This document shows positions 25,033 to 50,793 of a stretch of 64,000 nt of DNA, in pieces (within the stretch, counting starts at the first letter, position 1; each line of letters opens with the position of its first letter). The notes beneath the pieces were generated by a model. It ran no database searches, had not been told where the DNA came from, and was given only the letters and a program-made list of their open reading frames with translations. Both the position numbers and the translations under genes were made by a program. The DNA is from Kaistia hirudinis (GTDB lineage: Bacteria > Pseudomonadota > Alphaproteobacteria > Rhizobiales > Kaistiaceae), in assembly GCF_014196455.1 (NCBI RefSeq), contig NZ_JACIDS010000001.1, positions 310,001 to 374,000 of the forward strand, read 5' to 3'.

Positions 25033-25458
25033 TTAGGAGGCGCGGCGGAAGCCGACCAGCGTCTCGTCCGCGACGTCGGGAAGATTGACGACGATGTTGT
25101 CGGGCGTGCGGGTCGTCAGCCAGACCAGCTCTTCGGTGGTCGACATGTTCACTTCGACATGCGGCCAGAAGGGCGGCACGAAGATGAAGTCGCCTTCCTC
25201 CATGTCGAGATATTCAGAGAAGTTCTCGCCGTAATAGATGCGCGCCTTGCCCTTCAGCACATAGCCGCCGGTCTCGGCCTCGCCATGGTGATGAGGGTAC
25301 GAGCGATAGCCCGGCTCATTGGAAACCTTGCCGAACCAGATCTTGGTCGCCGGGGTGTGCTGCGGACCGACGCCGCTGACGCGCACGCAGCCGCCGGACT
25401 GGGTCGTCTGCTTATCTTCGTGGCCCTTGCGCGTGATGACGGGCATAACCTGGGACAT
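25033..25458 (-). CDS. Cupin domain protein
   Basis: A 141-residue single-domain cupin. Motif 1 is YPHHHGEAETGGYVLKGKA (about 54-72), with His-His-His and Glu as metal ligands. Motif 2 is GDFIFVPPFWPHVEVN (about 88-103), with a further His. It has no signal peptide. It is the last gene of the 2-aminobenzoyl-CoA-type operon that starts at 29469. Its size is far below that of gentisate dioxygenases (about 350 residues), so it is not that enzyme. It may be a small ring-product hydrolase, an isomerase or a dioxygenase; the function is open. Confidence 0.82.
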   Translation of the reverse strand: MSQVMPVITRKGHEDKQTTQSGGCVRVSGVGPQHTPATKIWFGKVSNEPGYRSYPHHHGEAETGGYVLKGKARIYYGENFSEYLDMEEGDFIFVPPFWPHVEVNMSTTEELVWLTTRTPDNIVVNLPDVADETLVGFRRAS

Positions 25459-25512
25459 GTCTTCCTCCTGCTGAAATCGGGCCTCTTCGTGATGGGCCCG
25501 GATGCTGATGGC

Positions 25513-25911
25513 TCAGTCCGGCACGACGGCCAGGACCTGGATTTCCACCTTGGCGCGGTCTTCCATGAGCGCGACGACCTGAACCGCCGCCATGGGCGGG
25601 AAATGGCGGCCGATGATCGAGCGGTAGACCGCGCCGATCTCCTTCATCCGCGATTTGTAGGCGTCGCGGTCCGTGAAGTACCAGGTCATCTGGATGATGT
25701 GCTCGGGCTTCGCGTCCGCATGCTCCAGCACCGTGACAATGTTGATCAGCGTCTGGCGCACCTGGTCGACGAAGTCGTCCGAATGAAACTGACAGTTCTC
25801 GTCCCAGCCGACCTGTCCGCCGACCTGTACGATGCGCCCGCGCGCGGAGATGCCGTTGGCATAGCCGACGGGCTTCGCCCAATGGTCGGGCTGGATGATT
25901 TCATGCTTCAT
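25513..25911 (-). CDS. Rid family protein (YjgF/YER057c/UK114)
   Basis: A 132-residue protein with the Rid fold: AKPVGYANGISARGRIVQVGGQ in parts, DDFVDQVRQTLINIVTVLEH, and a C-terminal AAVQVVALMEDRAKVEIQ. RidA itself hydrolyses reactive enamines or imines and needs Arg105 in a PARS-type motif; here the matching residues read PPMA. The catalytic Arg therefore appears missing, which places the protein in an Arg-less Rid subgroup of uncertain activity. The start is ATG 25911 (MKHEII). The upstream thioesterase gene overlaps it by 11 bp. Its place in the operon suggests a job on an amino or keto intermediate of the pathway. Confidence 0.85.
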   Translation of the reverse strand: MKHEIIQPDHWAKPVGYANGISARGRIVQVGGQVGWDENCQFHSDDFVDQVRQTLINIVTVLEHADAKPEHIIQMTWYFTDRDAYKSRMKEIGAVYRSIIGRHFPPMAAVQVVALMEDRAKVEIQVLAVVPD

Positions 25912-26320
25912 CGAGGGGCTCCAGGTAGCGGGAAAGACCGGCCCGGACATCGTGCGGCCAGGGATGAGACTTGTGGTTGTCGAGCGAGGTGGCGACGATG
26001 CGCTGCTTCACGGTCCAGATGACATCGCCGCGCACGCGGACGACCGTCTCCAGATCGAGCGACGAGCGACCCATCGCGCGGACATGGACCTCGAAATCGA
26101 GCACGTCGCCATAGGTGGACGGCAGCTTGAATTCGAGATTCAGCGTCACGGTCGGCAGGCCGATGCGCCGCTCGACCAGCAGTTCCTTCCAGCTGATGCC
26201 GACGGAGGCGAACATGGCTTCGTTCACGTCGACCAGCATCGAGAGATAGGCGGGGTGATAGGCGATCCCGGTGATGTCGCAATCGCCGAAGCGCAGGGGT
26301 TTTGAGATCGTGAAGGGCAT
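25901..26320 (-). CDS. Acyl-CoA thioesterase, 4-hydroxybenzoyl-CoA thioesterase family
   Basis: A 139-residue hot-dog-fold thioesterase. RFGDCDITGIAYHPAYL (about 10-26) matches the active-site helix of 4-hydroxybenzoyl-CoA thioesterases, including the catalytic Asp. YGDVLDFEVHVRAMGRSSL is a typical central strand pair. It hydrolyses an aromatic or alicyclic CoA thioester, either to release the pathway product or to free CoA from dead-end intermediates. It sits between the SDR and Rid genes in the monooxygenase/reductase operon and overlaps the Rid gene by 11 bp. Confidence 0.87.
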   Translation of the reverse strand: MPFTISKPLRFGDCDITGIAYHPAYLSMLVDVNEAMFASVGISWKELLVERRIGLPTVTLNLEFKLPSTYGDVLDFEVHVRAMGRSSLDLETVVRVRGDVIWTVKQRIVATSLDNHKSHPWPHDVRAGLSRYLEPLDEA

Positions 26321-26344
26321 CGCGTTTGCTTTCGGTTCTGCGTC

Positions 26345-27136
26345 CTAGCCGGCCATCACTTCGCCGCCGGCGACGACGATGGACTGGCCGGTGATGGCAT
26401 CGGACGCGGGAAGGACGAGCCAGAGGACGCTGCTCGCAACCTCCTCGGGCGTGACGAGACGGCCCTGCGGATTGGCCTTGGTGAATTCCGCCAGCGCCTC
26501 GGCCTCCGTCCGGCCGGTCTTCTCGACGATTGTCGCGATCGAGTTGCGGATGATCGGCGTGTCGGTGAAGCCGGGGCAGACCGCGTTGACGGTGACGCCC
26601 TTGCGCGCAAGCTCGAGCGCCAGCGCGCGCGTCAGGCCGACGACGCCGTGCTTGGCGGCGCAATAGGCCGTCACATAGGCATAGCCGGTCAATCCGGCAG
26701 TCGAGGCGATGTTGACGATCCGCGCGCCGGCGCCGAAGGCCTTCAGATCGGGGAGGACCGCCTGCGTGACGTTGAAGACGCCGCCGAGATCGACCGCCAT
26801 GACATGCGACCACATTTCATGGGTCGTCTTCTCGAAGGGCGCGCTCGGCGCTTCGCCGGCATTGTTGATCAGGACCGAGACCGGTCCGAAGCGCTCGCGC
26901 GCCGCTGCGAGCCCAGTGGCGATCGCCTCGGCATCCGTGACGTCGAAACCGGCGGCGACATGCGTGTTCGCCGCGCCGAGCTCTTCGGCCAGCGCCTCCA
27001 GCGGCTCACGCCGCCGTCCGGCGATCGTCACGCGGAGACCCTCAGCGACAAGGGCACGGGCGACCGCGGCGCCGATGCCGCTGCCGGCGCCGGTCACCAG
27101 CGCATGCCGGCCGTTGAGGGAGGGAAGTGCGGGCAT
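26345..27136 (-). CDS. SDR family dehydrogenase (3-hydroxyacyl-CoA-dehydrogenase-like)
   Basis: A 263-residue classical SDR. It has LVTGAGSGIGAAVARAL (about 13-29), LINNAGEAPSAPFEKTTHE, catalytic Ser in IVNIASTAGLTGYAYV, and YCAAKHGVVGLTRAL with Tyr and Lys. CPGFTDTPIIRNSI resembles SDRs of hybrid aerobic aryl-CoA pathways. The start is ATG 27136 (MPALPSLNGR). It lies 8 bp downstream of the two-domain monooxygenase/reductase, so it is translated in concert. It probably oxidises or reduces the hydroxy/oxo alicyclic CoA ester made by that enzyme; this role is inferred from the operon. Confidence 0.85.
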   Translation of the reverse strand: MPALPSLNGRHALVTGAGSGIGAAVARALVAEGLRVTIAGRRREPLEALAEELGAANTHVAAGFDVTDAEAIATGLAAARERFGPVSVLINNAGEAPSAPFEKTTHEMWSHVMAVDLGGVFNVTQAVLPDLKAFGAGARIVNIASTAGLTGYAYVTAYCAAKHGVVGLTRALALELARKGVTVNAVCPGFTDTPIIRNSIATIVEKTGRTEAEALAEFTKANPQGRLVTPEEVASSVLWLVLPASDAITGQSIVVAGGEVMAG

Positions 27137-27144
27137 GGCCGGCC

Positions 27145-29469
27145 TCACTTCGCCGCGGCAGGGGCCACGTTCGCGCGGGCGAGATTGGCCTCGTACTGGT
27201 ACTTGCCGGCGCGGTACTGCTTCGGCCACGGCACCGAGGTCAACCCGATCTTGGCCGCCTCATGCAGAGCCCAGGCGGGATCGGCGAGATGCGGGCGCGC
27301 AACGGCGCACAGATCCGCGCGGCCGGCGGCGATGATCGAATTGGCGTGGTCGGCCTCCGAGATCGCGCCGACGGCGATGGTCGGGATGCGGATCTCGTTG
27401 CGGATCTTGTCGGCAAAGGGCGTCTGGAACAGACGGCCATAGACGGGCTTCTCTTCCTTCCAGACCTGGCCCGACGAGCAGTCGATCAGATCCGCGCCCG
27501 CCGCCTTGAACATCTCGGCGAAGATCGCCGCATCGTCCGGCGTGTTGCCTCCCTCGAACCAGTCATGGCAGGAGAGGCGCACAGAGATCGGCCGATCCTC
27601 CGGCCAGGCGGCACGCACGGCGCGGAAGACCTCGAGCGGGAAGCGCGCGCGGTTCTCATGGCTGCCGCCATATTCATCCTCGCGCCGGTTGGTCAGCGGC
27701 GACAGGAAGCTCGACAGCAGATAGCCGTGGGCGCAATGGAGTTCGAGCCAGTCGACACCGGCCTCGGCCGCCCGCTTCGTCGCGGCGACGAAATCGGCGG
27801 TGACGCGGTCCATGTCGGCGCGGTCCATCGCCTTCGGGACCTGGCTGTTCTTGAGATAGGGCAGGGCGGAGGCGGAGAGGAGCGGCCATCCACCGCTCTC
27901 CAGCGGCTGGTCGATGCCGTCCCAGGCGAGCTTGGTCGCGCCCTTGCGGCCCGCATGGCCGAGCTGCATGCCGACCTTGGCGTCGCCGGCGCCATGCACG
28001 AAATCGACGAGACGCTTCCAGCCTTCCGCCTGCGCATCGTTCCAGATGCCGAGGCAGCCGGGCGTGATGCGCGCGTCGGGCGAGACACAGGTCATCTCCG
28101 CGAAGACAAGCCCGGCACCGCCGAGCGCGCGGCTGCCGAGATGCACCATATGGAAGTCGTCGATCAGGCCGTCCGTCGCCGAGTACATCGCCATTGGCGA
28201 GACGACGATGCGGTTCGGCAGCGTCACGCCGCGCACCGTATAGGGCGTGAACATGGGCGGCGTGCAGCGCTCGTTCTCGCGCGCGTCGAGGCCCGACTTG
28301 CGGGCGAACCAGCGCTCATAGCCTTCGAGCCAGGTCTTGTCGCGCAGGCGCAGATTCTCGTGGCTGATGCGCTGCGAGCGCGTCAGCATGGAATACATGA
28401 ACTGCTCGGGCTCCAGCGTATCGGCATAGCGCTCGCCGACCACCTCGAACCACTCCATTGCGTTGCGCGCCGCATTCTGAATGCGCGCGACATCGACGCG
28501 GCGGATTTCCTCATAGGTCGCGAGCACGGAGGGGATCGTGTCCTTGCCGTGCCCGGCCTTGTTGAACTGGTTCGCGAGCTCAATCGCGTCGTCGATGGCG
28601 AGCTTGGTGCCCGAGCCGATCGCGAAATGGGCGGTATGGGCGGCATCGCCCATCAGCACGACATGCGAATTGCCGTTGAAATGGCTCCACTTGCCGCAGA
28701 TGAGGCGCTGGAAATTGAGCCAGGCCGAGCCGCGGAGATGCCGCGCATTGGTCATCAGCGACGCGCCGTCCAGAACCTCCGCGAAGAGGTTCTCGCAGAA
28801 GGCGATCGACTGGTCCTGGCTCATCTCGCCGAGGCCATGCGCCTCATAGGCGGCTTCCGTCGTCTCGACGATGAAGGTCGAAGTCTTGTCGTCGAACTTG
28901 TAGATATGCGCCTGGAACCAGCCGTGATCCGTCTTGCGGAAATCGAAGGTGAACGCGTCGAACGACTTGTTGGTGCCGAGCCAGATATAGCGGTTCGGAC
29001 GCACGACGAGATCTGGCTGGAACACGTCGGCATAGCGGTTGCGGATCTTGGAGCCGAGGCCGTCTGAGGCGATGACGAGGTCGGCGTCCGGGAAATCGGC
29101 GTCGCTGTCGACCTCGGTCTCGAACTTCAGTTCAACGCCGAGCGCTTCGCAGCGCGCCTGCAGGATGTTGAGCAGCTTCTTGCGGCCGATGCCGACGAAG
29201 CCATGGCCGGTCGTGCGCTGGCGGGTGCCCTTGAAGAGCACCTCGATATCGTCCCAATGGTTGAAGGCGGTCTCGATCTCGGCCGCGCTTTCCGGATCCC
29301 AGGCGCGCATCGACGTCATGGTCGCGTCGGAGAAGACGACGCCCCAGCCGAATGTGTCATAGGGGCGGTTGCGCTCGACCACCGTCACGGAATGCTCCGG
29401 ATGGAGCTTCTTCATCAGGAGCCCGAAATAGAGCCCGGCCGGACCGCCGCCGATACAGACGATGCGCAT
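27145..29469 (-). CDS. Two-domain aryl-CoA monooxygenase/reductase (2-aminobenzoyl-CoA or salicylyl-CoA type)
   Basis: A 774-residue fusion. Residues 1-390 are a group-A flavoprotein monooxygenase: [18 protein letters not shown] at the N-terminus and [20 protein letters not shown] near 275-295, the second FAD motif. Residues about 400-760 are an Old-Yellow-Enzyme domain: [52 protein letters not shown]. This order and size match 2-aminobenzoyl-CoA monooxygenase/reductase of Azoarcus evansii, often labelled bifunctional salicylyl-CoA 5-hydroxylase/oxidoreductase. It hydroxylates and reduces the ring of 2-aminobenzoyl-CoA. It is the first gene of an operon with SDR, thioesterase, Rid and cupin genes. 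No aryl-CoA ligase is present. A palindrome 40 bp upstream is a likely operator. Confidence 0.88.
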
Positions 29470-29639: not shown

Positions 29640-30764
29640 TCAGGCGGCGACCGACTGGCGGGCCGCTACCGGGCGGCGGATGCCGCGGGCTTCGAGGATC
29701 GGCAGCACGGTGTCGCGGAAATACGGGAACTCTTCCGCGTAATCGACGAAGGAGAGCGTCGTGCCGCTGAAGCCGGCTTCGTGGAGCGCGATCAGGCCTT
29801 CGGCGACCTGCTCAGGCGTTCCGATGAGCGGGAAACCGCCATGGCCGGCCGCCATCCGGTCGCGGATGAGGGCGAGCAGGTCGTGCGGGAAGGAGTGCGC
29901 ATGGGCGAACTGGAGCTTGACCAGATTGTCCACGGCCGCCCAATCGGCGTTGTCCTGCACGAAGTATTTCAGATAGTCGCGCGCCTCCTTCTCCGTCGGG
30001 CGGCAGACGACATGCGAGAAGGTGAGGACGCCGAGCGGGCGGCCGGCCGCCTGGCTCTGCGCCTTGATCTGGCCGATCTCTTCCTTTGAGCGATCGAGGT
30101 CGATGGCCGGCGTGAACAGGAAATCGGCATTGCGCACGGCGAATTCGCGGCCCTGCGGGGAGCCGGCGGCGTTGAGGATCGGCACCTTGCGCGAGGGGCG
30201 CGGATCGCCCAGCACCTGCTTCAGCTTGAAGAACCGGCCGTCGAAATCAAAGGCCTCCTCGCGCTGCCAGAGCGCCTTGACGATCTCGAACCACTCTTCG
30301 GAATAGGCGTAGCGGGTCTCGTGGTCGCTCGGCAGCGTCAGCCCCAGCGCTTCATATTCCGGGCTGTTCCAGCCGGCCACGATGTTGAGTCCGATGCGGC
30401 CCTTGCTGATCTGGTCGACCGTGGCAATCTGCTTGGCGACGACGACGGGATGGTTGGCGGCGGTGTGGATCGTGGCGAAGACGTTGATGTTGCTGGTATG
30501 AGCAAGCAGACCGGTCGCCCATGTCATGGTCTCGAGGACGCCACCATGGAAATTCGTTTCGCCGCCATAACCGATCCAGCGCGCGATCGGCAGCATGAAG
30601 TCGATGCCCGCATCGTCGAGCAGGCGGGCGAGCTTCAGGTTGTTGTCCCAGGAATTGTCCCAGCGCTCCGGTATCTTCGTCACCGACATGCCGCTCGAGC
30701 AATTCGAGGCGAAGGTGCCGAGCAAAAACTGCCCGGCGGCGAACATGGAGTTCTCCGTCATCAT
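29640..30764 (-). CDS. LLM-class flavin-dependent monooxygenase (luciferase-like)
   Basis: A 374-residue FMNH2-using monooxygenase of the bacterial luciferase fold, close in layout to RutA/alkanesulfonate-monooxygenase members. Seen segments are LARLLDDAGIDFMLPIARW, THTAANHPVVVAKQIATVDQ (written there as IHTAANHP), ISKGRIGLNIVAGWNSPEYE and YSEEWFEIVKALWQREE. It needs a separate reductase to supply FMNH2; none is adjacent, and the nearest flavin reductases are at 33654 and 57639. The start is ATGATG at 30764. It is divergent from a MarR gene, with an AAGCTT site between them. The substrate is unknown; C-S or C-N oxidation of a heterocycle is possible. Confidence 0.85.
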   Translation of the reverse strand: MMTENSMFAAGQFLLGTFASNCSSGMSVTKIPERWDNSWDNNLKLARLLDDAGIDFMLPIARWIGYGGETNFHGGVLETMTWATGLLAHTSNINVFATIHTAANHPVVVAKQIATVDQISKGRIGLNIVAGWNSPEYEALGLTLPSDHETRYAYSEEWFEIVKALWQREEAFDFDGRFFKLKQVLGDPRPSRKVPILNAAGSPQGREFAVRNADFLFTPAIDLDRSKEEIGQIKAQSQAAGRPLGVLTFSHVVCRPTEKEARDYLKYFVQDNADWAAVDNLVKLQFAHAHSFPHDLLALIRDRMAAGHGGFPLIGTPEQVAEGLIALHEAGFSGTTLSFVDYAEEFPYFRDTVLPILEARGIRRPVAARQSVAA

Positions 30765-30812
30765 GGTGTCCCTGCGTATTGTTAGAATTTACGATAGAAA
30801 GTTTATTTGAAG

Positions 30813-30826
30813 TTTGAAGCTTGTCA
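30813..30826. promoter_or_regulatory. AAGCTT-centred site in the divergent LLM-marR promoter
   Basis: TTTGAAGCTTGTCA shares the AAGCTT core and left flank with the sites at 29509 and 41199. It lies between the luciferase-like gene and the MarR gene, where an autoregulatory operator is expected. Only the 6-bp core is symmetric. Confidence 0.45.
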
Positions 30827-30848
30827 ATGGCTGTCGGCGCGCGCGCCG

Positions 30849-31439
30849 ATGAGAATGGGGACTGCAGCGATGAACTCGTCGGGGAGCGATCAGGGGGGCG
30901 GGGCAGGCGGGCTCGACCGCAGCTGGCATCTGGCGCGCACGCCGGTCGAGGTCGATGTCGCTGAGCTGGAATATGCGCTGATGCGGGCCTATGAGGCCTT
31001 CGGGCGCTGGCAGGCGGAGTGCCTCGCCTGCGTCAGTGAACTCGCGGCCAGCGGGCCCGAGAACGCCATGCTGCACATCATCCGCATGCATGACCGGCCG
31101 AAGACGATCAAGGATCTGGCGCGCCTCTCCAATCGCGATGACGTGCCCAACATGCAGTACAGCCTGCGCAAGCTGCTGGGGGCGGGGCTCATCGAGCGGC
31201 AGGGAAGCGGCCGCTCGGGCGTGACCTATTCGGTCACCGAAAAGGGCCGCGCGGTCACCGACCACTATGCCGATGTGCGCGCCGCGCTCCTGATCAAGGC
31301 GGTGCAGCACGTGCCCGATCTCGGGCTCAGGCTGCGCGAGGCGACCGATACGCTGGAACTGCTGACCGGCATCTATGAGCAGGTGGCGCGCGGGGCGGCG
31401 ACCCATCGCGCCTTCCCTCGGAAACAGACGCCGAAGTGA
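30849..31439 (+). CDS. MarR-family/winged-helix transcriptional regulator
   Basis: A regulator of about 190-196 residues. The winged-helix region (about 70-140) has IIRMHDRPKTIKDLARLSNR, then VPNMQYSLRKLLGAGLIERQ, then GVTYSVTEKGRAVTDHYADV. This is typical of the MarR-like regulators found beside hybrid aryl-CoA operons. Starts at 30849, 30855 and 30870 are all possible: 30849 is the first ATG, while 30870 has the better upstream GGGGA. It is divergent from the luciferase-like gene and followed by a good terminator. It is the best candidate to bind the AAGCTT-centred sites and to respond to an aryl-CoA ester. Confidence 0.82.
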   Translation: MRMGTAAMNSSGSDQGGGAGGLDRSWHLARTPVEVDVAELEYALMRAYEAFGRWQAECLACVSELAASGPENAMLHIIRMHDRPKTIKDLARLSNRDDVPNMQYSLRKLLGAGLIERQGSGRSGVTYSVTEKGRAVTDHYADVRAALLIKAVQHVPDLGLRLREATDTLELLTGIYEQVARGAATHRAFPRKQTPK

Positions 31440-32798: not shown

Positions 32799-33578
32799 TC
32801 AGGCGGAGAGCAGCGGGATGGCGGCGTCGGCGCGCTCGGGGCCCATGGCGGTGTAGCCGCCATCGACGCAGAGATCGGTGCCGGTGATGAAAGAGGCGCC
32901 ATCGGACAGCAGGAAGGCGATCGCCTCCGCGACCTCCGAGGGGCTGCCGGTGCGCCCGAGCATGTGGAACGGCTTGGCCACGGCATCGGCCTTGGCGCGC
33001 GTGTCCTTGGTCAGCTCGACCATGACATTGGACCAGGTCCAGCCGGGCGAGACGGCGTTGACGCGAATGCCCTCGGGCGCGAGGTCCATCGCCTGGCTGC
33101 GCGTTAATTGCAGGATGGCCGCCTTGGAGACGGGGTAGACCCAGCGCCCGGTCTGCGCCACGCGGGACGAGATCGAGCCGAAATTGACGATCGCGCCCTT
33201 GTTGGCGGCGAGATGCGGCCGTGCCGCCTGCATCAGCATGATCGAGGAGACGATGTTGACGTCGAGCGCCTTCAGCCAGTCGGCGCGCGTCGTCTCGGCG
33301 CCATTGTCGAGATAGGTACAGGCGACGTTGACGAGATAATCGAGCCGGCCGGTCGTCTTGACCGTCTCCGCGACTAGCGCCGCGATGTCGGCGTCGCTCG
33401 TGATGTCGGTCCGGATGAAGCGGGCGCCGAGCCGTTCGGCCGCAGCCGATCCGGCTTCCGCCGCGATATCGGCGATGACGACATTGACGCCATATTTGGC
33501 CAGCACCTCGGCGGTGCCTTGGCCGATCAACGTGGCGCCGCCCGAGATGATGGCGGTCTTGCCTTGGAGTCCGAGCAT
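32799..33578 (-). CDS. SDR family dehydrogenase of the StyA-like operon
   Basis: A 259-residue SDR. The nucleotide motif is variant, SGGATLIGQGTAEVLAKYG (about 10-28), and the usual NNAG reads NVAC. The catalytic Ser, Tyr and Lys are present in IVNFGSISSRVAQTG and WVYPVSKAAILQLTRSQAMD. The start is ATG 33578 (MLGLQGKTAI); the frame extends further, but into non-conserved sequence. It lies between the flavin reductase and the StyA-like monooxygenase. In indole operons of the iif type the SDR oxidises the indole-2,3-dihydrodiol to 3-hydroxyindolin-2-one; a similar step is inferred here. Confidence 0.83.
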   Translation of the reverse strand: MLGLQGKTAIISGGATLIGQGTAEVLAKYGVNVVIADIAAEAGSAAAERLGARFIRTDITSDADIAALVAETVKTTGRLDYLVNVACTYLDNGAETTRADWLKALDVNIVSSIMLMQAARPHLAANKGAIVNFGSISSRVAQTGRWVYPVSKAAILQLTRSQAMDLAPEGIRVNAVSPGWTWSNVMVELTKDTRAKADAVAKPFHMLGRTGSPSEVAEAIAFLLSDGASFITGTDLCVDGGYTAMGPERADAAIPLLSA

Positions 33579-43608: not shown

Positions 43609-43618
43609 GGAGCGCGAC

Positions 43619-45175
43619 ATGCTGAACGAACCGACCATCACCGCCGGATCGGCCGAGCTTGCCGCCGAGAAGCCGATCACCGTCGCCATCCTCGCCATGG
43701 GCGGGCAGGGCGGCGGCGTGCTCGCCGACTGGATCGTCGCGCTCGCCGAAGAGCAGGGCTGGGTGGCGCAGTCCACCTCGGTGCCGGGCGTCGCGCAGCG
43801 CACCGGCGCGACGATCTATTATCTCGAACTCATCAAGGCGCGCCCTGGGGCGCGGCCCGTGCTGGCGCTAATGCCGACGCCGGGCGACGTCGATCTCGTC
43901 GTGGCGGCGGAGCTGATGGAGGCCGGGCGCTCCGTGTTGCGCGGCCTCGTGACGCCGGATCGCACCATGCTGATCGCCTCGACGCATCGCTCCTATGCGG
44001 TGGGCGAGAAGGAGAAGCCGGGCAACGGCATCGGCAATCCGCTCGTCGTCGTCGACGCCACCGAATTCGCGGCCAAGAAAACGATCGCCTTCGACATGGA
44101 GACGCTCGCGACGAAGAATGGCAGCGTCGTCTCCGCCTCGCTGTTCGGCGCGATCGCCGCTTCCGGCCGGCTGCCTTTCGAAAAGGCCGCCTTCGAGGCG
44201 ACGATCAAAGCCGGCGGCAAGGGCATCGAGCCGAGCCTCAAGGCGTTCAACGCCGCCTTCGAGCGGGCGCGGAAGGGCGAGAACGACAAGCTCTCCGACA
44301 CGCCGGCGAAGCGCCTGGACCCGCTCCCCGATTCCGCGGGCCATCCGAAGCTGGATGGCGTGCTCGAGCGAATCCGGACCGAGTTTCCGCCGGAGGCGCA
44401 GGCCATGCTCTATGCCGGCGCCAAGAAGCTTACCGACTTTCAGGACGTCGCCTATGCCGACGCCTATCTCGACCGCATGGCCGCTCTGCTGCGTGCCGAT
44501 ACCGTTGCCGGCGGCGAAGGCCACGACTACGCCTTCACCGTCGAGGCAGCCAAATATCTCGCCGTCGCCATGGCCTATGACGACGTGATTCACGTCGCCG
44601 ACCTGAAGATCCGCGGCTCCCGCTTCGACCGGGTGCGTCGCGAGGTCGGAGCCAAGGCGGATCAGCTCGTCTACACGACAGAGTTCATGCATCCGCGCAT
44701 GGAAGAGGTCTGCGGCACCTTGCCGAAGGGGCTGGGCCAATGGATCGAGAATCGGCCGGCCGTGTTCCAGTGGCTGGACCGCCGCGTCAACAAGGGGCGC
44801 CGCGTCCGCACCGGCACGCTCGGCTGGTTCCTCGGGCTCTATGTGCTGTCCTCGTTCCGGGGATTGCGCCCGCGCAGCCTTCGTCATGCCCGCGAAATGG
44901 CGCATTGCGAGGCCTGGCTCGATACCGCGCTCGCGACGCTCGGCGTGAATTATGATCTTGCGGTCGAGGTGATCGCCTGCCGGCGGCTCGTGAAGGGCTA
45001 TTCCGACACGCACGCCCGCGGCCTGTCGAAATTTGACCGCGTCCTCTCCAGTCTGCCGCTTCTCGTTGGACGCGAGGATGGCGCCGCCTGGCTCCGGCGG
45101 CTGCGTCAGGCGGCGCTGCTGGACGAAAACGGGATCGCGCTCGACGGGGCGCTCAAGACGGTCGCGACCCTCTAG
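43619..45175 (+). CDS. iorB: Indolepyruvate:ferredoxin oxidoreductase-like, beta subunit with C-terminal extension
   Basis: A 518-residue protein. Residues 15-210 form the gamma/IorB domain: TVAILAMGGQGGGVLADWIV, STSVPGVAQRTGATIYYLEL, GDVDLVVAAELMEAGRSVLR. Residues about 230-518 form a large extra domain seen in the long aerobic-type IorB proteins (DUF6537-like), containing AKYLAVAMAYDDVIHVADLK and LGWFLGLYVLSSFRGLRPRS. Archaeal IorB is only about 200 residues, so this is the long form. The start is ATG 43619, 10 bp after iorA. It completes the oxidoreductase; the electron acceptor is not encoded beside it. Confidence 0.9.
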   Translation: MLNEPTITAGSAELAAEKPITVAILAMGGQGGGVLADWIVALAEEQGWVAQSTSVPGVAQRTGATIYYLELIKARPGARPVLALMPTPGDVDLVVAAELMEAGRSVLRGLVTPDRTMLIASTHRSYAVGEKEKPGNGIGNPLVVVDATEFAAKKTIAFDMETLATKNGSVVSASLFGAIAASGRLPFEKAAFEATIKAGGKGIEPSLKAFNAAFERARKGENDKLSDTPAKRLDPLPDSAGHPKLDGVLERIRTEFPPEAQAMLYAGAKKLTDFQDVAYADAYLDRMAALLRADTVAGGEGHDYAFTVEAAKYLAVAMAYDDVIHVADLKIRGSRFDRVRREVGAKADQLVYTTEFMHPRMEEVCGTLPKGLGQWIENRPAVFQWLDRRVNKGRRVRTGTLGWFLGLYVLSSFRGLRPRSLRHAREMAHCEAWLDTALATLGVNYDLAVEVIACRRLVKGYSDTHARGLSKFDRVLSSLPLLVGREDGAAWLRRLRQAALLDENGIALDGALKTVATL

Positions 45176-45197: not shown

Positions 45198-45719
45198 TTA
45201 CGGTTCGTCCGAGCGGACGTTGCGCAGGATCTTCTGCAGGATCGCGACGAGGAAGCGTTGTTCCTCGTCGGAGACGTCGGCGAACATCTCGTTCAGATGC
45301 GCGAACATCATCGGCCAGATCCGGTCGAAGACGGCGCGGCCTTCGGGCGTGATCGAGATGTCGCGGATGCGCATATCGTCCGCACGCGACTGGCGCTGGA
45401 CGAAGCCCTGCTCCTCGAGCGCATCGATCGTGCGGCTCAGCGTGGACTGCTCCGTCACGGCATAGACGGCGAGCTCGTTCACGGTGAGCGAGGAGAACAT
45501 CGACAGGACGGCGAGCGCCCGCATCTTCGGCGTGGTCACGCCCATGGCGCGCAGTTCAGCCGCCAGGCCGCCGTTCCAGCGCGCCATGACGCGGTTCATG
45601 AGATAGGGCGCGAAATTGTTCAGCCCGATCTCGCCGAGGCTCTGCATGCGCGTGCCGGCGGGCGGCGGCTCCGGCAGGGGCGTCGTGGCAGGGATCTTCG
45701 AACGCGCGCGCGTCTTCAA
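45198..45719 (-). CDS. MarR family transcriptional regulator
   Basis: A regulator of about 173 residues. The MarR wHTH (about 60-130) reads TTPKMRALAVLSMFSSLTVN, ELAVYAVTEQSTLSRTIDAL, EEQGFVQRQ and a wing DDMRIRDISITPEGRAVF. The start is uncertain: TTG at 45719 has a GAGGAG site nine bases upstream and is chosen, while ATG at 45647 has no visible site. It converges on iorB (22 bp apart) and follows the flavoprotein gene ending at 45769. It probably controls iorAB and/or the cyclase-flavoprotein genes. Confidence 0.85.
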   Translation of the reverse strand: MKTRARSKIPATTPLPEPPPAGTRMQSLGEIGLNNFAPYLMNRVMARWNGGLAAELRAMGVTTPKMRALAVLSMFSSLTVNELAVYAVTEQSTLSRTIDALEEQGFVQRQSRADDMRIRDISITPEGRAVFDRIWPMMFAHLNEMFADVSDEEQRFLVAILQKILRNVRSDEP

Positions 45720-45768
45720 CAGGACGATCTCCTCAAGAACCTTCGTTCCGCTGCGCGCGTTCCCACAT

Positions 45769-47367
45769 CTAGAGCGACGATCCCAGCAGGAATCCGGACC
45801 CGCCGCCGAGGCCGGGGCCGGGGTGGGTCGATGCGCCGATGTGATACAGCCCCGCAATGTGGGTCCTGTGGTTAGACGGCCTCTTCAGCGGGCGCCAGAG
45901 GAAAAATTGGTCCAGCCCGCAGAAGCCGCCATAGGGATCGCCGCCGACCAGATTGACGTTCATGGCTTCAAGATCGGCCGGCGAATAGACGCGTCGGCTC
46001 AGGATCGTGTCGCGGAAACCCTCGATATGGCCGGCGAGGATCGTCTCGATCCGGTCGGCGAAGGCTTCGCGCAGCCCATCCGTCCACCGGCCGTCGGGGG
46101 GAATGGCAAGTTCGCCCGCCGCATCGCCCTTGATGTGGCGTGGCGTGTCGGGGATCTGCAGCCAGAGCAGGCCGCTGCCTTCCGGCGCGCGGCTTGGATC
46201 GAAGCTGGCGGGCTGGCCGACGCAGATGGTCGGCACGGCAGGCAACTGCCCGCGCTCAGCCTCGTTGGCCGAACGCGAGACGCCGTCGAGCCCGGGCGTC
46301 AGATGCAGCAACGCGATCTTGCCGAGCTCCGCGCCGGCCTTCCAGGCCGGCGGCGCGCTCAGGGCGTAGTGGATCTGCATGTTGCCCTTGCCGTAGCGAT
46401 AGGATTTGACGCCCTCGTCGACTTCAGCCGGAAGCGGCGTCGGCCAATCGCCGAGCAGCCGTTCATAGAGCTGGTTCGGCGTCACCGAGGCGATGACGCC
46501 CTTGCCCGCCTTGAGCACCTGGCCATCGGCGAGCCTGACGCCGGCGGCGCGCCCTGCGCCGTCGGGCACGATCGCGGCGACATCGGCCTCTGTCATGATC
46601 GCGCCGCCCTGGTCGCGGATCAACCGCTCGAACGCCGCGAGCAGATTGCGGGCGCCGCCTTTGACGATCGGGCAGCCGGCCATCTCGATCGCGAAGCCGA
46701 TGACCTTTGTCATCTCGGCGGAATAGGCGCTCTCCGGCCCGAGGCCGCAATGCAGCGCCCAGGGCGCGAACAGCGCACGCATCTCCTCGGAGCGATAGGT
46801 TGTCTCCAGATAGCCGCGCGCGGGGGCGAGCGCCTCGCCGAAGAAGGCGGCGAGTCCCTTAAGCCCGCGCTTCCAGGCCTCCTTCGCGACGAGCTTGAGC
46901 GTCGCTGCGGTCCAGAGCTCGCCGCCGAGCAGGCCGAAGACGAAGCCGGCATTGCCGCCGAAACGGCCCATCTCGCGCTCGAAGGCCGTGCCGTCGCCGG
47001 CGGCAAGGGCGTCGAAATGCGCGATGTTGCGGGCGCGGTCCATGCTGAGGATCGCGTGGCTCCCATCGGGGCGGAGTACGCCCGTCGGCGTCGGGCAATG
47101 GGCGAACTCGAGCCCGCGCGCCTCGAGGTCCTTGCCGAGCGCCGCATAGGCCGGCGAGGTGATGAACAGCACCATGGTGGTGGCCATCACATCGTGCACG
47201 AAGCCGGGGCGGGTGATCTCTTCGGTGCGGAGGCAGCCGCCGATCACCGGGTTGCGTTCGAGCAGCAGGACCTTGCGGCCCTTCTTGCCGAGCATGGCGG
47301 CGGCCACGAGGGCATTGATGCCGCTGCCGATGATGATGTGGTCATAGGCTGTCGTCGGAGCGTTCAC
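45769..47367 (-). CDS. FAD-dependent oxidoreductase, PYROXD2/phytoene-dehydrogenase-like (copy 1)
   Basis: A 532-residue flavoprotein. The FAD motif DHIIIGSGINALVAAAML with KVLLLERNPVIGGCLRTEEI sits at the N-terminus. The CrtI-like C-terminal motif is GLYHIGASTHPGPGLGGGSG. The start is a GTG at 47367 preceded by GGGGAGG; the upstream ATG of the frame lies in non-conserved sequence. PYROXD2-type enzymes dehydrogenate or isomerise unsaturated bonds; no carotenoid genes are nearby. A second paralogue is at 48618-50189, with the cyclase gene between. Both are probably part of the same catabolic route. The reaction is unknown. Confidence 0.83.
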   Translation of the reverse strand: MNAPTTAYDHIIIGSGINALVAAAMLGKKGRKVLLLERNPVIGGCLRTEEITRPGFVHDVMATTMVLFITSPAYAALGKDLEARGLEFAHCPTPTGVLRPDGSHAILSMDRARNIAHFDALAAGDGTAFEREMGRFGGNAGFVFGLLGGELWTAATLKLVAKEAWKRGLKGLAAFFGEALAPARGYLETTYRSEEMRALFAPWALHCGLGPESAYSAEMTKVIGFAIEMAGCPIVKGGARNLLAAFERLIRDQGGAIMTEADVAAIVPDGAGRAAGVRLADGQVLKAGKGVIASVTPNQLYERLLGDWPTPLPAEVDEGVKSYRYGKGNMQIHYALSAPPAWKAGAELGKIALLHLTPGLDGVSRSANEAERGQLPAVPTICVGQPASFDPSRAPEGSGLLWLQIPDTPRHIKGDAAGELAIPPDGRWTDGLREAFADRIETILAGHIEGFRDTILSRRVYSPADLEAMNVNLVGGDPYGGFCGLDQFFLWRPLKRPSNHRTHIAGLYHIGASTHPGPGLGGGSGFLLGSSL

Positions 47368-47526
47368 GCGCGGACCTCCCCTTGGCTGGCAGCGAGCGGG
47401 GCTGACGGCATCGGCCCGAAGGGCAGGCGGGATGACCGGCAGCATCCGCGGCAGGTTCAGGCTGATCGAGGCAGGGCGCCGCGCCGTTCCCGAGGGAAGT
47501 AGCGCGCCGCTGTTCTGCCCTATTGA

Positions 47527-48312
47527 TCAGGCCAGCAGCGCCAGCGCGCGGACCGGCGAGCCGGTGCCCTGCACGAACTTCAGCGGCGCGGCGATCAGGA
47601 TCGCCCCCTTCGGCGGCAGCTTGTCGAGATGGCTGAGGCTCGCGAGGCCATAGCGATTGGCCTTGTGCATCAGATTGTGGGCCGGGAAGGGCGGGTTCAT
47701 GCCGCCGGCCGCACCGGCGTCGGTGCCGATCGTCTCCTGGCCCCAGCCGATGATGCCCTTGCCGATCAGGTACTCGATTGCCTCTGCGGTCGGTCCCGGC
47801 GAATGCGGGCCGTTCTCATCGGCGTTCAGGAAGGCCTCGGTCGAGCCGTTGCGCTTGTACCAGTCGGTGCGGAGCAACACCCAGGTGCCGGGTTCGATGG
47901 CGCCGTGCTCGGCTTCCCATTCCTTGATGCTCTCGACGGTGAGCAGGTAGTCCGGGTTTGCCGCCGCTTCCTTCGAACGGTCGATGACATTGACCGGCGC
48001 GACGAAGTTCTGCGGCGGGATGGTGTCGGTCGTGTTTTCGGGCAGGTCCTTGCCGGTGATCCAGTGGCAGGGCGCGTCGAAATGCGTGCCGGTATGCTCG
48101 CCGAGTTCCAGCCAGTTCCAGGCCCAGAACGGGCCGTCCTGGTCATAGGCCGAGATCTTGTGCACCTTCACATTCGGCGTGTTGTTGCCGAACTGCGGCG
48201 GCAGATAAAGTACCGGGGTCTCCGGTCCCAGCGGCGCGGTGAGATCCACGACCTTGATGGATCCGGCGACGAGACCGGCGGCGAGCGCTGCGAGAGCGGT
48301 TTGATCGGACAT
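47527..48312 (-). CDS. Cyclase family metal-dependent hydrolase (isatin hydrolase / kynurenine formamidase-like)
   Basis: A 261-residue enzyme of the cyclase family. The metal signature HTGTHFDAPCHW gives His73, His77, Asp79 and His83, the manganese- or zinc-binding set of isatin hydrolase and KynB. IEPGTWVLLRTDWYKR and ETIGTDAGAAGG are further family segments. Isatin hydrolase opens isatin to isatinate; KynB hydrolyses N-formylkynurenine. The StyA-type operon and iorAB in this island favour isatin. The gene is divergent from the second PYROXD2-like gene, with a perfect 13-bp dyad (48397-48409) 85 bp upstream. Confidence 0.84.
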   Translation of the reverse strand: MSDQTALAALAAGLVAGSIKVVDLTAPLGPETPVLYLPPQFGNNTPNVKVHKISAYDQDGPFWAWNWLELGEHTGTHFDAPCHWITGKDLPENTTDTIPPQNFVAPVNVIDRSKEAAANPDYLLTVESIKEWEAEHGAIEPGTWVLLRTDWYKRNGSTEAFLNADENGPHSPGPTAEAIEYLIGKGIIGWGQETIGTDAGAAGGMNPPFPAHNLMHKANRYGLASLSHLDKLPPKGAILIAAPLKFVQGTGSPVRALALLA

Positions 48313-48617
48313 ACGAGGTTCCCTTCGGCTTATTCTTGGCGGCCGTCCGGGCGCTCAGCGCATGCCGGCCATCCTGATGCACGCAGGAAGCCTAGATCAT
48401 AAAATATGAGCCTGCAACTATCTGTGATGGCCGGCGCGAAGGCGGCTGGCGATGCCCCATCCAACGCCGATACTCCTTAAAAACAGCCATATCGCGCCAA
48501 AGATCGAGGCAGTGCGCCGGCAGGGCGGCGTGTGTGCCCAGACCGCTCTTGTGCCGATAACGGCCTGAATATATGCATTCAAAGATATAATCACATAATC
48601 CGCTTCCAGGGGTCGAC
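48313..48617. promoter_or_regulatory. Divergent control region between cyclase and flavoprotein genes
   Basis: A 305-bp region. TCATA-AAA-TATGA at 48397-48409 is a perfect 13-bp dyad on the cyclase side. On the flavoprotein side TATATGCATTCAAAGATATA (48570-48589) starts like the complement of the iorA upstream element at 41405-41420 (TATATGCATTTACATA). Both are plausible MarR-type operators. No gene is seen here. Confidence 0.5.
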
Positions 48618-50189
48618 ATGGATCATTTTGACGCCGTCGTCATCGGTGCCGGTCATAACGGGCTCGCCGCCGCCATCGATTTAACCTTTAAGGGATGGCG
48701 TGTCGCGGTGGTGGAGCGCGCGGCCGTGCCGGGCGGCGCGGTGAAGACGCAGGAGGTCACGGAGCCGGGCTTCCGCCACGACCTCTGCGCGATGAACCTC
48801 TCCATGTTCGCGGGCTCGGCATTCCACGCGACCTATAAGGATGTGCTGGCCGAGCACGGCCTCGCCTTCGTCCCGGCGCCGCATTGCTTCGCCAGCGTCT
48901 TTCCCGACGGAACCCATCTGGGCGTCGGGACGGATGTCGCCGCGACGCTTGCCGGCATAAGGGCCCTGTCGGACGAGGATGCCGGCGCCTGGCAGGCGAT
49001 GCTGGACGATTTCGGCCGCAAGGCGCCGCACATCTTCGGCCTGCTCGGGTCGCCTATGCCCTCGGCGGCCGCCCTCAAGGTGGTCTGGAAGGCCTGGCGG
49101 GCCGGCGGCTGGCCCATGCTCTATGACCTCGGCCGGCTGCTGCTGTCCTCGCCGCGCGAATTCCTCGACGATCATTTTGCCAGCGAGAAGCTGAAGGCGA
49201 CCTTGGCCGCCTGGGGGCTGCATCTCGACTTTGCCCCGGATGTCGCGGGCGGCGCGCTGTTCCCCTATCTCGAATCGATGACCAACCAGCTCTTTGGCAT
49301 GGTGATCGGCAAGGGCGGCGCCGACACGATCATTCGCGCCATGACCGCGCTGTTCGCGGCGAAGGGCGGAACGTTGCTGCTGGATGCGCCCGTGGCCGCC
49401 ATCGAGATGACCGGCGGCAAGGCGAGCGGCGTTCGCCTCGCCGATGGCCGCGTCCTCGCGGCGCGGCGCGCCGTCATCTCCAACGTCAATCCGCGCGTGA
49501 CCTTCGAGCGGCTGGTCCCGGCCGCGGCGGGCGCGGCCGATTATCGCCGGGCGCTCGGCAAATTCCGACCCGGGCCGGCGGCGATGATGATCCATCTGGC
49601 GATGGACGACCTGCCGGATTGGAGCGCTGGCGCCGCGCTTCGGGACTACGCCTATGTCCATATCGCACCCGACATGGCGATGATGAACCGCGTCTATTCC
49701 GAGGCGATGTCCGGCTTGCTGCCGGTCGAGCCGGCTCTGGTTGTCGGCCAGCCGACCACCCTCGACCCCAGCCGCGCGCCCGCGGGCAAGCATGTGCTGT
49801 GGGTGCAGGTGCGCGTCCTGCCCGCGCAGATCCGCGGCGACGCGGCCGGCGTGATCACGGCAACGAACTGGGACGAAGCGAAGGAGGCCTATGCCGACCG
49901 CGCGCTGGCGATCATCGAGCGCTATGCGCCGGGAACGCGCGCCAAGGTGCGGAGCCGTGCCGTCCTTTCGCCGGCCGATCTGGAAGCGGAGAATCCGAGC
50001 CTCATCGGCGGCGACAGCCTGTCGGGCTCGCATCATCTGGCGCAGAACTTCCTGTTCCGGCCTGTCGCCGGCCATTCGCGCTACAAGACGCCGGTGCCCA
50101 ATCTCTATGTCTGCGGCGCGGGTACCTGGCCGGGGGCCGGCACCGGCGCCGGCTCGGGCTACATGCTCGCGAAGATGCTCGCGCGCTGA
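48618..50189 (+). CDS. FAD-dependent oxidoreductase, PYROXD2/phytoene-dehydrogenase-like (copy 2)
   Basis: A 523-residue flavoprotein, paralogous to the 45769-47367 product. The FAD motif FDAVVIGAGHNGLAAAIDLT with VAVVERAAVPGGAVKTQEVT is at the N-terminus. NVNPRVTFERLVPAAAGAAD and the C-terminal NLYVCGAGTWPGAGTGAGSG are typical CrtI/PYROXD2 elements. The start is ATG 48618. It is divergent from the cyclase gene and followed by a MarR gene 106 bp downstream. Two such flavoproteins around one hydrolase suggest successive dehydrogenations or a shared substrate class; this is inference. Confidence 0.85.
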   Translation: MDHFDAVVIGAGHNGLAAAIDLTFKGWRVAVVERAAVPGGAVKTQEVTEPGFRHDLCAMNLSMFAGSAFHATYKDVLAEHGLAFVPAPHCFASVFPDGTHLGVGTDVAATLAGIRALSDEDAGAWQAMLDDFGRKAPHIFGLLGSPMPSAAALKVVWKAWRAGGWPMLYDLGRLLLSSPREFLDDHFASEKLKATLAAWGLHLDFAPDVAGGALFPYLESMTNQLFGMVIGKGGADTIIRAMTALFAAKGGTLLLDAPVAAIEMTGGKASGVRLADGRVLAARRAVISNVNPRVTFERLVPAAAGAADYRRALGKFRPGPAAMMIHLAMDDLPDWSAGAALRDYAYVHIAPDMAMMNRVYSEAMSGLLPVEPALVVGQPTTLDPSRAPAGKHVLWVQVRVLPAQIRGDAAGVITATNWDEAKEAYADRALAIIERYAPGTRAKVRSRAVLSPADLEAENPSLIGGDSLSGSHHLAQNFLFRPVAGHSRYKTPVPNLYVCGAGTWPGAGTGAGSGYMLAKMLAR

Positions 50190-50229
50190 GCGGACGAGGG
50201 CCGGCGCCGGAATGCCTTGCCAGTCGCTT

Positions 50230-50264
50230 GAAACATGAAGTATCTCCGGCCCGTCGAAACATGA
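50230..50264. promoter_or_regulatory. Paired 9-bp direct repeats upstream of the MarR gene
   Basis: GAAACATGA occurs exactly at 50230-50238 and again at 50256-50264, 26 bp apart, ending 31 bp before the MarR start codon. The spacing is near two and a half helical turns. It is a candidate autoregulatory site. Confidence 0.45.
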
Positions 50265-50295
50265 TCGGCGCGATGCCCGATTGCAGGACAGGTGA

Positions 50296-50793
50296 ATGTC
50301 GGTCGATCTGGAAGCCATCGTCAGTGATACGCAGGACGGCAAGAAGCAGGAGCTTCGGCTGTGGCTGCGGGTGCTCTCGACTTCCAAGCTGATCTCGCAG
50401 GAAATCCGCCGCCGGCTGCGCCGCGAGTTCGACGCGACGCTGCCGCAGTTCGATATCCTGTCGCAGCTATATCGCGAGAAAGACGGGCTGCGGCTGGGCG
50501 AACTCTCCCGCCGCGCCATGGTCACCAATGGCAATGTCACCGGCCTGGTCGAGCGCCTCGAGCAGGACGGGTATGTCGCGCGCGAGCGCCTCGATGACGA
50601 CCGCCGCGTTACCGTCGCGATGCTGACCGACAAGGGCCGTCGCACCTTCGCCGCGATGGCCGAAGCGCATGAGCAATGGTTGCGCGACATGCTGGCCGAT
50701 GTCGATCCGATCGTCGTCTCGGGCCTGCTCACCCATATGGGCCAGGTCAAGCAATCCGTCCGCAATCACCTTAGCGGCGAAGGCGACGACTGA
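50296..50793 (+). CDS. MarR family transcriptional regulator
   Basis: A 165-residue classical MarR protein. The HTH region reads LPQFDILSQLYREKDGLRLG, ELSRRAMVTNGNVTGLVERL and EQDGYVARERLDDDRRVTVA, including the DDRR wing typical of the family. MGQVKQSVRNHL forms the C-terminal dimerisation helix. The start is ATG 50296; GTG at 50292 is out of frame. It follows the second flavoprotein gene and precedes the next ABC operon, so it could control either; exact 9-bp repeats lie just upstream. Confidence 0.9.
   Translation: MSVDLEAIVSDTQDGKKQELRLWLRVLSTSKLISQEIRRRLRREFDATLPQFDILSQLYREKDGLRLGELSRRAMVTNGNVTGLVERLEQDGYVARERLDDDRRVTVAMLTDKGRRTFAAMAEAHEQWLRDMLADVDPIVVSGLLTHMGQVKQSVRNHLSGEGDD

Follow-up and report, generated by a model that had tools for sequence, protein, structure and literature searches.

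The window analysed here is a stretch of 64,000 nucleotides of the genome of Kaistia hirudinis (contig NZ_JACIDS010000001.1, positions 310,001 to 374,000), a genome of 5.26 Mb in 14 contigs with a listed completeness of 100% and a listed contamination of 2.99%. It carries a gene cluster in which iorA and iorB, coding for a two-subunit 2-oxoacid oxidoreductase of the indolepyruvate type (IorAB), are found together with a gene for isatin hydrolase and a probable module for the breakdown of 2-aminobenzoyl-coenzyme A (CoA). This arrangement suggests that IorAB might form the thioester directly from isatinate, the product of isatin hydrolase, with no CoA ligase involved. The left part of the cluster (24110-30764, mostly on the minus strand) contains genes for a short-chain dehydrogenase/reductase (SDR), a cupin, RidA, a thioesterase-like protein, a further SDR, a two-domain 2-aminobenzoyl-CoA-type monooxygenase/reductase (ACMR) and a luciferase-like monooxygenase. 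The middle part consists of genes for a StyA-type monooxygenase, an SDR and a flavin reductase (31480-34166, minus strand), an AraC regulator (34339-35325, plus strand) and a glyoxalase-fold protein with an Opp-type transporter (35341-41185, minus strand). In the right part, iorA-iorB (41455-45175, plus strand) are followed by genes for a MarR regulator, a first flavin adenine dinucleotide (FAD) oxidoreductase (FADox1) and isatin hydrolase (45198-48312, minus strand) and for a second one (FADox2) and another MarR regulator (48618-50793, plus strand). Protein families were assigned by Pfam and NCBIfam profiles with curated cut-offs, sequence matches to the PDB and BLAST, some calls being made by eye. 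The features on which the argument turns are the following.

41455..43608, plus strand: IorA (IadA-like), thiamine pyrophosphate (TPP) and iron-sulfur subunit, proposed isatinate oxidoreductase (TIGR03336; TPP motif)
43592..45175, plus strand: IorB (IadB-like), POR and DUF6537 subunit (Pfam; NF006179)
45198..45857, minus strand: MarR regulator (PDB 3cjn, E 3e-41, then 7kym, E 2e-26); the true start probably lies lower than 45857
45769..47445, minus strand: FADox1, CrtI/CrtO-like FAD oxidoreductase, proposed to convert dioxindole to isatin (Pfam, NCBIfam)
47527..48312, minus strand: isatin hydrolase (PDB 4j0n, isatin hydrolase B, end to end, E 7e-122)
48618..50189, plus strand: FADox2, second CrtI/CrtO-like FAD oxidoreductase (Pfam, NCBIfam, PDB comparison)
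31480..32718, minus strand: StyA-type indole monooxygenase, IifC-like (Pfam Smoa_sbd, E 5e-46; start MSASRN)
32799..33626, minus strand: SDR, IifB-like dihydrodiol dehydrogenase (58% identical to its counterpart in a Burkholderia iif-type operon)
33654..34166, minus strand: flavin reductase, IifD-like (Pfam Flavin_Reduct)
27145..29469, minus strand: ACMR (NF006101; Pfam FAD_binding_3, Oxidored_FMN)
26345..27136, minus strand: SDR dehydrogenase downstream of ACMR (Pfam adh_short; adjoins ACMR in relatives)
25901..26320, minus strand: thioesterase-like protein, putative lower pathway (by eye; BLAST matches to thioesterases adjoining ACMR in relatives)
25513..25950, minus strand: RidA-type imine deaminase, putative lower pathway (Pfam Ribonuc_L-PSP; adjoins ACMR in relatives)

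All genes named in an initial annotation of this DNA were recovered in place by Pfam, NCBIfam and PDB matches. The cluster also holds genes that it did not mention, namely those for RidA, the thioesterase-like protein, the cupin, further SDRs, the luciferase-like monooxygenase, the AraC and MarR regulators, the two CrtI/CrtO-like FAD oxidoreductases and the Opp-type ATP-binding cassette (ABC) transporter.

IorB matches the indolepyruvate oxidoreductase beta family NF006179 with 718 bits (cut-off 348) and represents the sole place in the genome where a POR domain was found. IorA exhibits a TPP motif at residue 483 and eight cysteines beyond residue 560, and no solved structure was matched by its sequence. 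Against the indolepyruvate ferredoxin oxidoreductase equivalog TIGR03336 it reaches 270.5 bits, far under the cut-off of 650.9, so that the chemistry of IorAB is one that we infer, a first point that weighs against our proposal. The best NCBIfam names of both subunits and the single POR-domain place would suit a conventional indolepyruvate (arylpyruvate) oxidoreductase, supplying acyl-CoA derived from tryptophan and lying beside isatin hydrolase incidentally; the low score of IorA speaks against this alternative as well, and the comparative results that bear on it are given below. The homologues of IorA and IorB are IadA and IadB of auxin-degrading iad loci, and both members of this pair are present in the window; no Rieske family, expected for IadD/IadE, was found among the window open reading frames (ORFs) put through Pfam, which did not include every ORF.

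The cyclase in which the initial annotation had noticed a metal motif of isatin hydrolases carries this motif (EHTGTHFDAP) at residue 72 and resembles isatin hydrolase B over its full length, which bears out the original call. Of the two FAD oxidoreductases beside it, FADox2 matches phytoene dehydrogenase (4dgk) just weakly (E 1e-18), and the reaction proposed for these enzymes therefore rests on gene context. In Azospirillum thermophilum, a separate run of genes for SDR, StyA, flavin reductase, transporter, FADox1 (67% identity) and cyclase (56%) exists with no dienelactone-hydrolase-type gene within it, and because of this run FADox1 is tied to the step between dioxindole and isatin. The second PDB match of the MarR regulator, 7KYM, is a Bradyrhizobium MarR of a locus for degradation of indole-3-acetic acid (IAA; PMC11630574; papers are cited here by PubMed Central number, from excerpts of their text).

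The absence of an aryl-CoA ligase, noted initially for the window, extends, as far as such enzymes are recognisable by sequence, to the whole genome. AMP-binding proteins (PF00501) were found in five places, and a search with the benzoate-CoA-ligase model TIGR02262 gave the same five. Three of them exceed NCBIfam cut-offs, as malonyl-CoA synthase, acetate-CoA ligase and acetoacetate-CoA ligase, while the other two match acyl-ACP-ligase models best, under cut-off, the smaller (L009) being without a sure substrate. No gene in the whole genome passes the TIGR02262 cut-off of 375 bits, the maximum being 219.7 bits for the malonyl-CoA synthase, with 111.6 bits for L009; hence none of the five proteins is recognisably an aryl-CoA ligase, 2-aminobenzoate-CoA ligase included. 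There is a very slim chance that the ligase escaped recognition, anthranilate being activated to 2-aminobenzoyl-CoA by an AMP-binding protein or an enzyme of another kind. The AMP-binding searches used a first-look filter, L009 matches an acyl-ACP ligase only with a score below the cut-off and relatives do have such ligases, but the two models converge on the same five places, L009 falls far short of the TIGR02262 cut-off, the genome is listed as complete and the PF00501 search was positive in 12 of 14 control genomes.

A ligase could also be dispensed with in another way. The genome contains four family III CoA-transferases, of which one most resembles succinate-glutarate CoA-transferase (580.7 bits against a cut-off of 750) and the other three lack an NCBIfam name at E 1e-80, and because of them a ligase-free route via anthranilate counts against our proposal: isatinate would first become free anthranilate, whether through IorAB acting without CoA or by other means, and the thioester would then be made by a CoA-transferase. 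Anthranilate is reported as the iad product (PMC9613470), which favors such a route; against it, no CoA-transferase was found among the window ORFs put through Pfam, again not every ORF, and Pad and IorAB enzymes are described as thioester-forming (PMC5109826). We hold it to be improbable.

In the pathway that we infer instead, down to every substrate and reaction, StyA and the flavin reductase would oxidise indole and the SDR would yield 3-hydroxyindolin-2-one (dioxindole), which a CrtI-like FAD oxidoreductase (FADox1 and/or FADox2) would convert to isatin. Isatin hydrolase would open isatin to isatinate (2-aminophenylglyoxylate), and IorAB, as a TPP- and iron-sulfur-dependent 2-oxoacid oxidoreductase, would turn isatinate and CoA into 2-aminobenzoyl-CoA and CO2 by oxidative decarboxylation. 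No CoA ligase would be needed, since the energy of 2-oxoacid decarboxylation makes the thioester. Finally, ACMR, SDR, RidA and the thioesterase-like protein would dearomatise, reduce and deaminate 2-aminobenzoyl-CoA. ACMR scores 1371.8 bits against NF006101/PRK08255 (cut-off 1078), the monooxygenase/reductase of the 2-aminobenzoyl-CoA pathway, whose family name is salicylyl-CoA 5-hydroxylase/oxidoreductase; the neighboring RidA hints at an amine substrate, i.e., 2-aminobenzoyl-CoA rather than salicylyl-CoA. The thioesterase-like protein, recognised by eye, is 29% identical to its counterpart in locus L096 by BLAST and gave no NCBIfam match at E 1e-30.

The distribution of these genes was analysed in 396 genomes of the same order that are at least 95% complete. 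ACMR was present in 140 of them at E 1e-150, and the tests of ligase, IorB and isatin hydrolase cover the 78 in which it reaches at least 1255 bits, the other 62 being left out. IorB occurs in 50 of the 78 at E 1e-60 and as a close IorB (at least 600 bits) in 43, seven genomes with a weaker IorB (274-436 bits) being counted as without. A benzoate-CoA-ligase-type gene was found in 68 at E 1e-90, and genomes with no TIGR02262 match at this threshold are termed ligase-negative. Isatin hydrolase (E 1e-40) accompanies close IorB in 41 of 43 genomes and is present in none of the 35 others (20/22 vs. 0/24 when collapsed by genus); in 34 of the 41 it lies at most 20 kb from IorB. All ten ligase-negative genomes, from six genera, have a close IorB, compared with 33 of 68 ligase-positive ones (Fisher test, 0.0017; genus-collapsed, 0.022). 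Within 20 kb of ACMR, the ligase is found alone in 42 genomes, IorB alone in 18, both in nine and neither in nine (Fisher test, 3.4e-5; genus-collapsed, 0.0037), and eight of the nine genomes with neither have a close IorB elsewhere. The simplest reading is that IorB of the window's clade uses what isatin hydrolase produces and that the ACMR substrate would be supplied alternatively by IorAB or by the ligase.

Several observations weigh against this reading. The Fisher tests were adjusted for kinship by genus collapse alone, two genomes (G289 and G086) have a close IorB without isatin hydrolase, and a benzoate-CoA-ligase-type gene also occurs in 33 of the 43 close-IorB genomes. Such a gene was likewise found by hand (350 bits) in 19 of 29 named relatives, with ten lacking it; these genomes, mostly isolates, derive from 30 loci chosen out of 80, L042 missing. 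Among the ten, ACMR was seen for L018, L023 and, if it is identical to G016, Kaistia dalseonensis, the other seven not being checked for it. The idea of a ligase-free pathway as a general rule thus did not survive the comparison, and the co-occurrence in relatives that had been anticipated emerged in part: IorB and isatin hydrolase go together and ligase-negative genomes all have a close IorB, but ligase genes are frequent in genomes with a close IorB. IorAB is not a strict substitute for the ligase everywhere, and the ligase may serve external anthranilate. In G031, G032 and G034, benzoate-CoA-ligase-like matches of about 500 bits lie within open frames of 922-974 amino acids, which is longer than a normal ligase.

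Gene neighborhoods were compared for 80 IorB loci, the best of 584 in named genomes; 66 of the 80 span at least 19 kb, and Rieske labels refer to a sequence motif. Isatin hydrolase is present in 54 of the 80 loci, FADox1 in 41, the transporter gene oppA in 38, a Rieske-like motif in 17 and ACMR in 12. The more widely kept core, as judged from gene content, is IorAB, isatin hydrolase, the FAD oxidoreductases and the transporter. Agrobacterium cavarae (L018) unites much of the pathway in one run, ACMR-LLM-MarR-StyA-SDR-FR-AraC-IorA-IorB (LLM, luciferase-like monooxygenase; FR, flavin reductase), in a genome whose best TIGR02262 score is 277.7 bits. In Alloyangia pacifica, the modules occur on one plasmid, with StyA, isatin hydrolase and IorA at 67% identity each, ACMR at 54%, IorB at 48% and both FAD oxidoreductases; a benzoate-CoA-ligase-type gene (365.5 bits) adjoins the transporter there. 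The closest IorB among named genomes, with 89% identity, is that of K. dalseonensis (L016). IorB of the window type (E 1e-60) is present in four of 28 genomes of the family and in two of 14 of the genus, and the cluster is therefore patchy in the family.

IorAB was found with two kinds of entry enzyme, Rieske-type and StyA-type, and isatinate would be the intermediate common to both, because the IAA route passes isatin and isatinic acid (PMC9613470). In a tree of IorB with 87 rows, the window falls into a supported group of 50 with zero Rieske-labelled rows, and isatin hydrolase loci are intermingled with Rieske loci in a neighboring group of 15 that has lower support; the isatin-hydrolase labels of L100 and L107 were taken from annotation and subsequently checked against the window enzyme by BLAST (49-55%). 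On the opposing side, some AMP-binding gene exists in 39 of the 80 IorB loci, nine of the 66 long loci, L018 among them, have neither isatin hydrolase nor a Rieske motif, and the Alloyangia IorB, at just 48% identity, is a long outlier in the tree. Moreover, IorB homologues of about 53% identity from Ruegeria and Sulfitobacter have different surroundings, the 25 kb shown containing no cyclase, and since this context differs, function is not transferable at about 53% IorB identity. The loci of Ruegeria, Sulfitobacter and Shinella (L108, L109 and L107; IorAB about 53%) have a carbon-nitrogen hydrolase of the nitrilase family, a cupin, a fumarylacetoacetate hydrolase, an Asp/Glu racemase and a thioesterase as neighbors and perhaps represent another aryl-2-oxoacid pathway; the Shinella stretch contains two isatin-hydrolase-like cyclases (49% and 55%). 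The IorB sequences labelled Mycobacterium sp. KBS0706 (L056) and Frankia sp. RB7 (L094) fall within the Inquilinus and Bradyrhizobium groups; the records are probably misnamed, unless the genes were transferred.

The idea that AMP-binding genes in iad-type loci code for anthranilate ligases was rejected, as in the loci checked PRK06155 gave the best NCBIfam match instead of the benzoate-CoA-ligase model. The PRK06155 cut-off is passed by a single gene in each of L035, L066, L075 and L100; the second genes of L035 and L075 and those of L080, L091, L095 and L099 remain under it (the second L066 gene was left out). Acyl-CoA ligases nearest to PRK06155 thus occur in iad-type or related IorAB loci (L099, 14493-16115; L075; L100, 8198-9799). 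As a guess, such a ligase might activate dioxindole-3-acetate, cleavage then giving isatin and acetyl-CoA.

Two promoters of the window share a short word, located by word search (no strand assigned).

41313-41320 and 41412-41419 (within 41313..41420): two copies of ATATGCAT preceding iorA, operator-like
48570..48581: TATATGCATTCA in the gap that separates isatin hydrolase from FADox2, operator-like

The exact pattern TATATGCATTYA has two occurrences in the window, one upstream of iorA and one in the intergenic region of isatin hydrolase and FADox2, against an expectation of 0.02 that is post hoc, the pattern being derived from these sites. All three window occurrences of ATATGCAT lie in the same two promoters (0.82 expected; as many in two of 100 shuffles), and the exact word is not present in the StyA and ACMR promoters of the window. 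Across the 80 loci, the cluster promoters (61,455 bases) hold 55 occurrences, spread over 30 loci, vs. 21 in 1,503,835 other bases, so that the word is about 64 times denser in these promoters (iorA, isatin hydrolase, FADox2, ACMR) than in the remaining DNA, with related promoters counted many times; none of eight control words had more than eight promoter matches. This signal has its own counterweights: the word was chosen from the two window promoters, with two mismatches allowed it is found three times in the window vs. 1.21 expected (as many in 15 of 100 shuffles), i.e., at chance level, and two of the control words, AATTGCAT and ATGCAATT, likewise have a higher density in promoters (0.065 and 0.13 vs. 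0.007 and 0.004 per kb). AT-rich intergenic DNA or related motifs may account for part of the ATATGCAT excess. The shared word, the co-occurrence with isatin hydrolase and the alternation of IorB with the ligase beside ACMR all argue against an ordinary indolepyruvate oxidoreductase, which we regard as quite improbable.

The StyA/SDR/flavin-reductase trio is, by sequence comparison, of the indole (iif) type; the StyA-type monooxygenase, flavin reductase and SDR expected of an iif operon are all present. The StyA-type protein reaches 208 bits against the styrene-monooxygenase StyA equivalog, under the cut-off of 550, and is 59% identical to StyA of the Burkholderia iif-type operon. In that operon a dienelactone-hydrolase-type gene, assigned by position, stands where IifA is expected; the dienelactone-hydrolase-type gene in IifA's place in L097, identified by position only, has just partial matches of 31-33% elsewhere in the present genome. 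Two minus-strand ORFs (34213-34953 and 30789-31625) were considered as genes and candidates for IifA and are probably not genes, given the AraC- and MarR-like ORFs on the opposite strand, both of which (called by eye) have homologues in relatives.

Indole itself would be one entry, perhaps not the main one, since the StyA trio appears to be a rare add-on, which again counts against the pathway in its full form. StyA (E 1e-100) was detected in nine of the 396 genomes and in two of the 80 IorB loci. The main natural substrate might instead be a preformed oxindole-, dioxindole- or isatin-type compound imported by the Opp-type transporter, with the trio added late; the frequency of oppA and isatin hydrolase in the IorB loci would agree with this. 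On the other hand, the trio is located inside the window cluster, StyA and IorAB are also joined in Alloyangia, A. cavarae and Devosia equisanguinis, and the seven StyA genomes that fall in the set of 78 all have a close IorB. We consider such an imported main substrate possible, if on the unlikely side; it leaves the IorAB step unchanged and overlaps with our proposal. Indole as substrate, the starting point of the initial annotation, is backed only where the trio is present, as in the window, the core of IorAB, isatin hydrolase, FAD oxidoreductases and transporter being more widely kept.

Taken as stated and for the present genome, the pathway from indole via isatinate to 2-aminobenzoyl-CoA is, in our view, reasonably probable. 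Its central claim, a proposed ligase-free conversion of isatinate by IorAB, draws on the lack of a recognisable ligase genome-wide, the comparative association and the precedent of the phenylglyoxylate oxidoreductase PadEFGHI (PMC5109826). We are evenly divided on a broader proposal: that IorAB/IadAB of this clade would be an isatinate:acceptor oxidoreductase (2-aminobenzoyl-CoA forming) and the common exit of bacterial indole and IAA breakdown via isatin, with the anthranilate of iad loci as a side product and with ligase and IorAB as interchangeable suppliers of ACMR. A 2018 review lists, in the excerpt drawn on, the part of isatin in indole degradation and the role of its hydrolase gene as open questions (PMC6221969). 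The cluster offers one answer to these and to the reaction of IadAB, in that isatin hydrolase and IorAB would give the CoA thioester directly. Such a route would save the ATP otherwise spent by the ligase and could change the annotation of auxin-degrading loci in plant-associated bacteria.

The remaining features of the cluster are listed below.

24110..24946, minus strand: SDR dehydrogenase, possible lower-pathway member (Pfam adh_short_C2)
25033..25458, minus strand: small cupin protein (Pfam Cupin_2)
29640..30764, minus strand: luciferase-like flavin monooxygenase between ACMR and StyA (Pfam Bac_luciferase)
30807..31439, plus strand: small MarR-like regulator (by eye; homologue at the same place in A. 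cavarae L018)
34339..35325, plus strand: AraC-family regulator (by eye; 33-36% to AraC beside StyA in L096, L097 and L098)
35341..35892, minus strand: glyoxalase-fold protein (Pfam Glyoxalase_4)
35885..41185, minus strand: five genes of an Opp-type ABC transporter, frequently retained next to iorAB (Pfam; oppA count given above)
50296..50793, plus strand: second MarR regulator (Pfam MarR; PDB 3boq)

The luciferase-like gene (29640-30764) is kept next to ACMR and StyA in A. cavarae. Beyond the cluster, the stretch 50985-57620 encodes an M24 peptidase-family protein and another Opp-type transporter, whose binding protein was not seen in the K. dalseonensis locus L016. On the other side (18373-24186), a fused NanE epimerase/ROK kinase (21522-23111), a sugar-type ABC transporter and a GntR regulator are probably involved in the use of amino sugars or sialic acid.

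Several known systems resemble parts of the cluster. The window cyclase is likened, by sequence, to isatin hydrolase B through its end-to-end match to 4j0n. The iif, ind and WHOP (dhoAB-ipoABC) operons share the StyA-type monooxygenase, flavin reductase, SDR and AraC regulator with the window (PMC6221969; PMC12538310), but no IifA-type gene was seen in the cluster, where isatin hydrolase, the FAD oxidoreductases and IorAB take that place. In excerpts of the indole literature, functions are assigned to IifC, IifD, IifB and IifA, and isatin is regarded as unsettled or as a potential dead end (PMC6221969; PMC12538310). The known 2-aminobenzoyl-CoA pathway of anthranilate has, like the window, a PRK08255-family monooxygenase/reductase with SDR, thioesterase-like protein and RidA, yet uses a 2-aminobenzoyl-CoA ligase (PMC6221969), of which none was found in the present genome.

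The iad locus for IAA degradation in Variovorax, Achromobacter and Bradyrhizobium shares IorA/IorB homologues and MarR regulators with the window (PMC9613470). Its route passes dioxindole, isatin and isatinic acid and has anthranilate as its reported end product; IadDE are necessary and sufficient for the loss of IAA, and the IorA/IorB homologues are listed as marker genes, with no reaction found assigned to IadA/IadB in the excerpt of that paper (PMC9613470). The window differs by the lack of a Rieske dioxygenase among its tested ORFs and by its StyA, CrtI-like oxidoreductases, Opp-type transporter and ACMR. Two reports of anthranilate stand against our proposal: anthranilic acid was detected, with dioxindole, isatin and isatinic acid, in IAA-grown Variovorax with the iad locus (PMC9613470), and anthranilate was reported for Pseudomonas LY1 on IAA (PMC8383072). 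No open-access paper in PubMed Central was found that connects isatin or isatinate to an indolepyruvate-type oxidoreductase forming 2-aminobenzoyl-CoA or assigns isatinate to IorAB. The closest chemical parallels are the oxidoreductases of related 2-oxoacids: indolepyruvate oxidoreductase converts arylpyruvates to arylacetyl-CoA, and PadEFGHI converts phenylglyoxylate to benzoyl-CoA (PMC5109826), i.e., an aryl-glyoxylate and CoA to an aroyl-CoA and CO2, which is the same chemistry as that proposed for IorAB. Whereas PadEFGHI is encoded by five genes and belongs to anaerobic metabolism, the window enzyme is of the two-subunit indolepyruvate oxidoreductase type and is encoded beside oxygenases.

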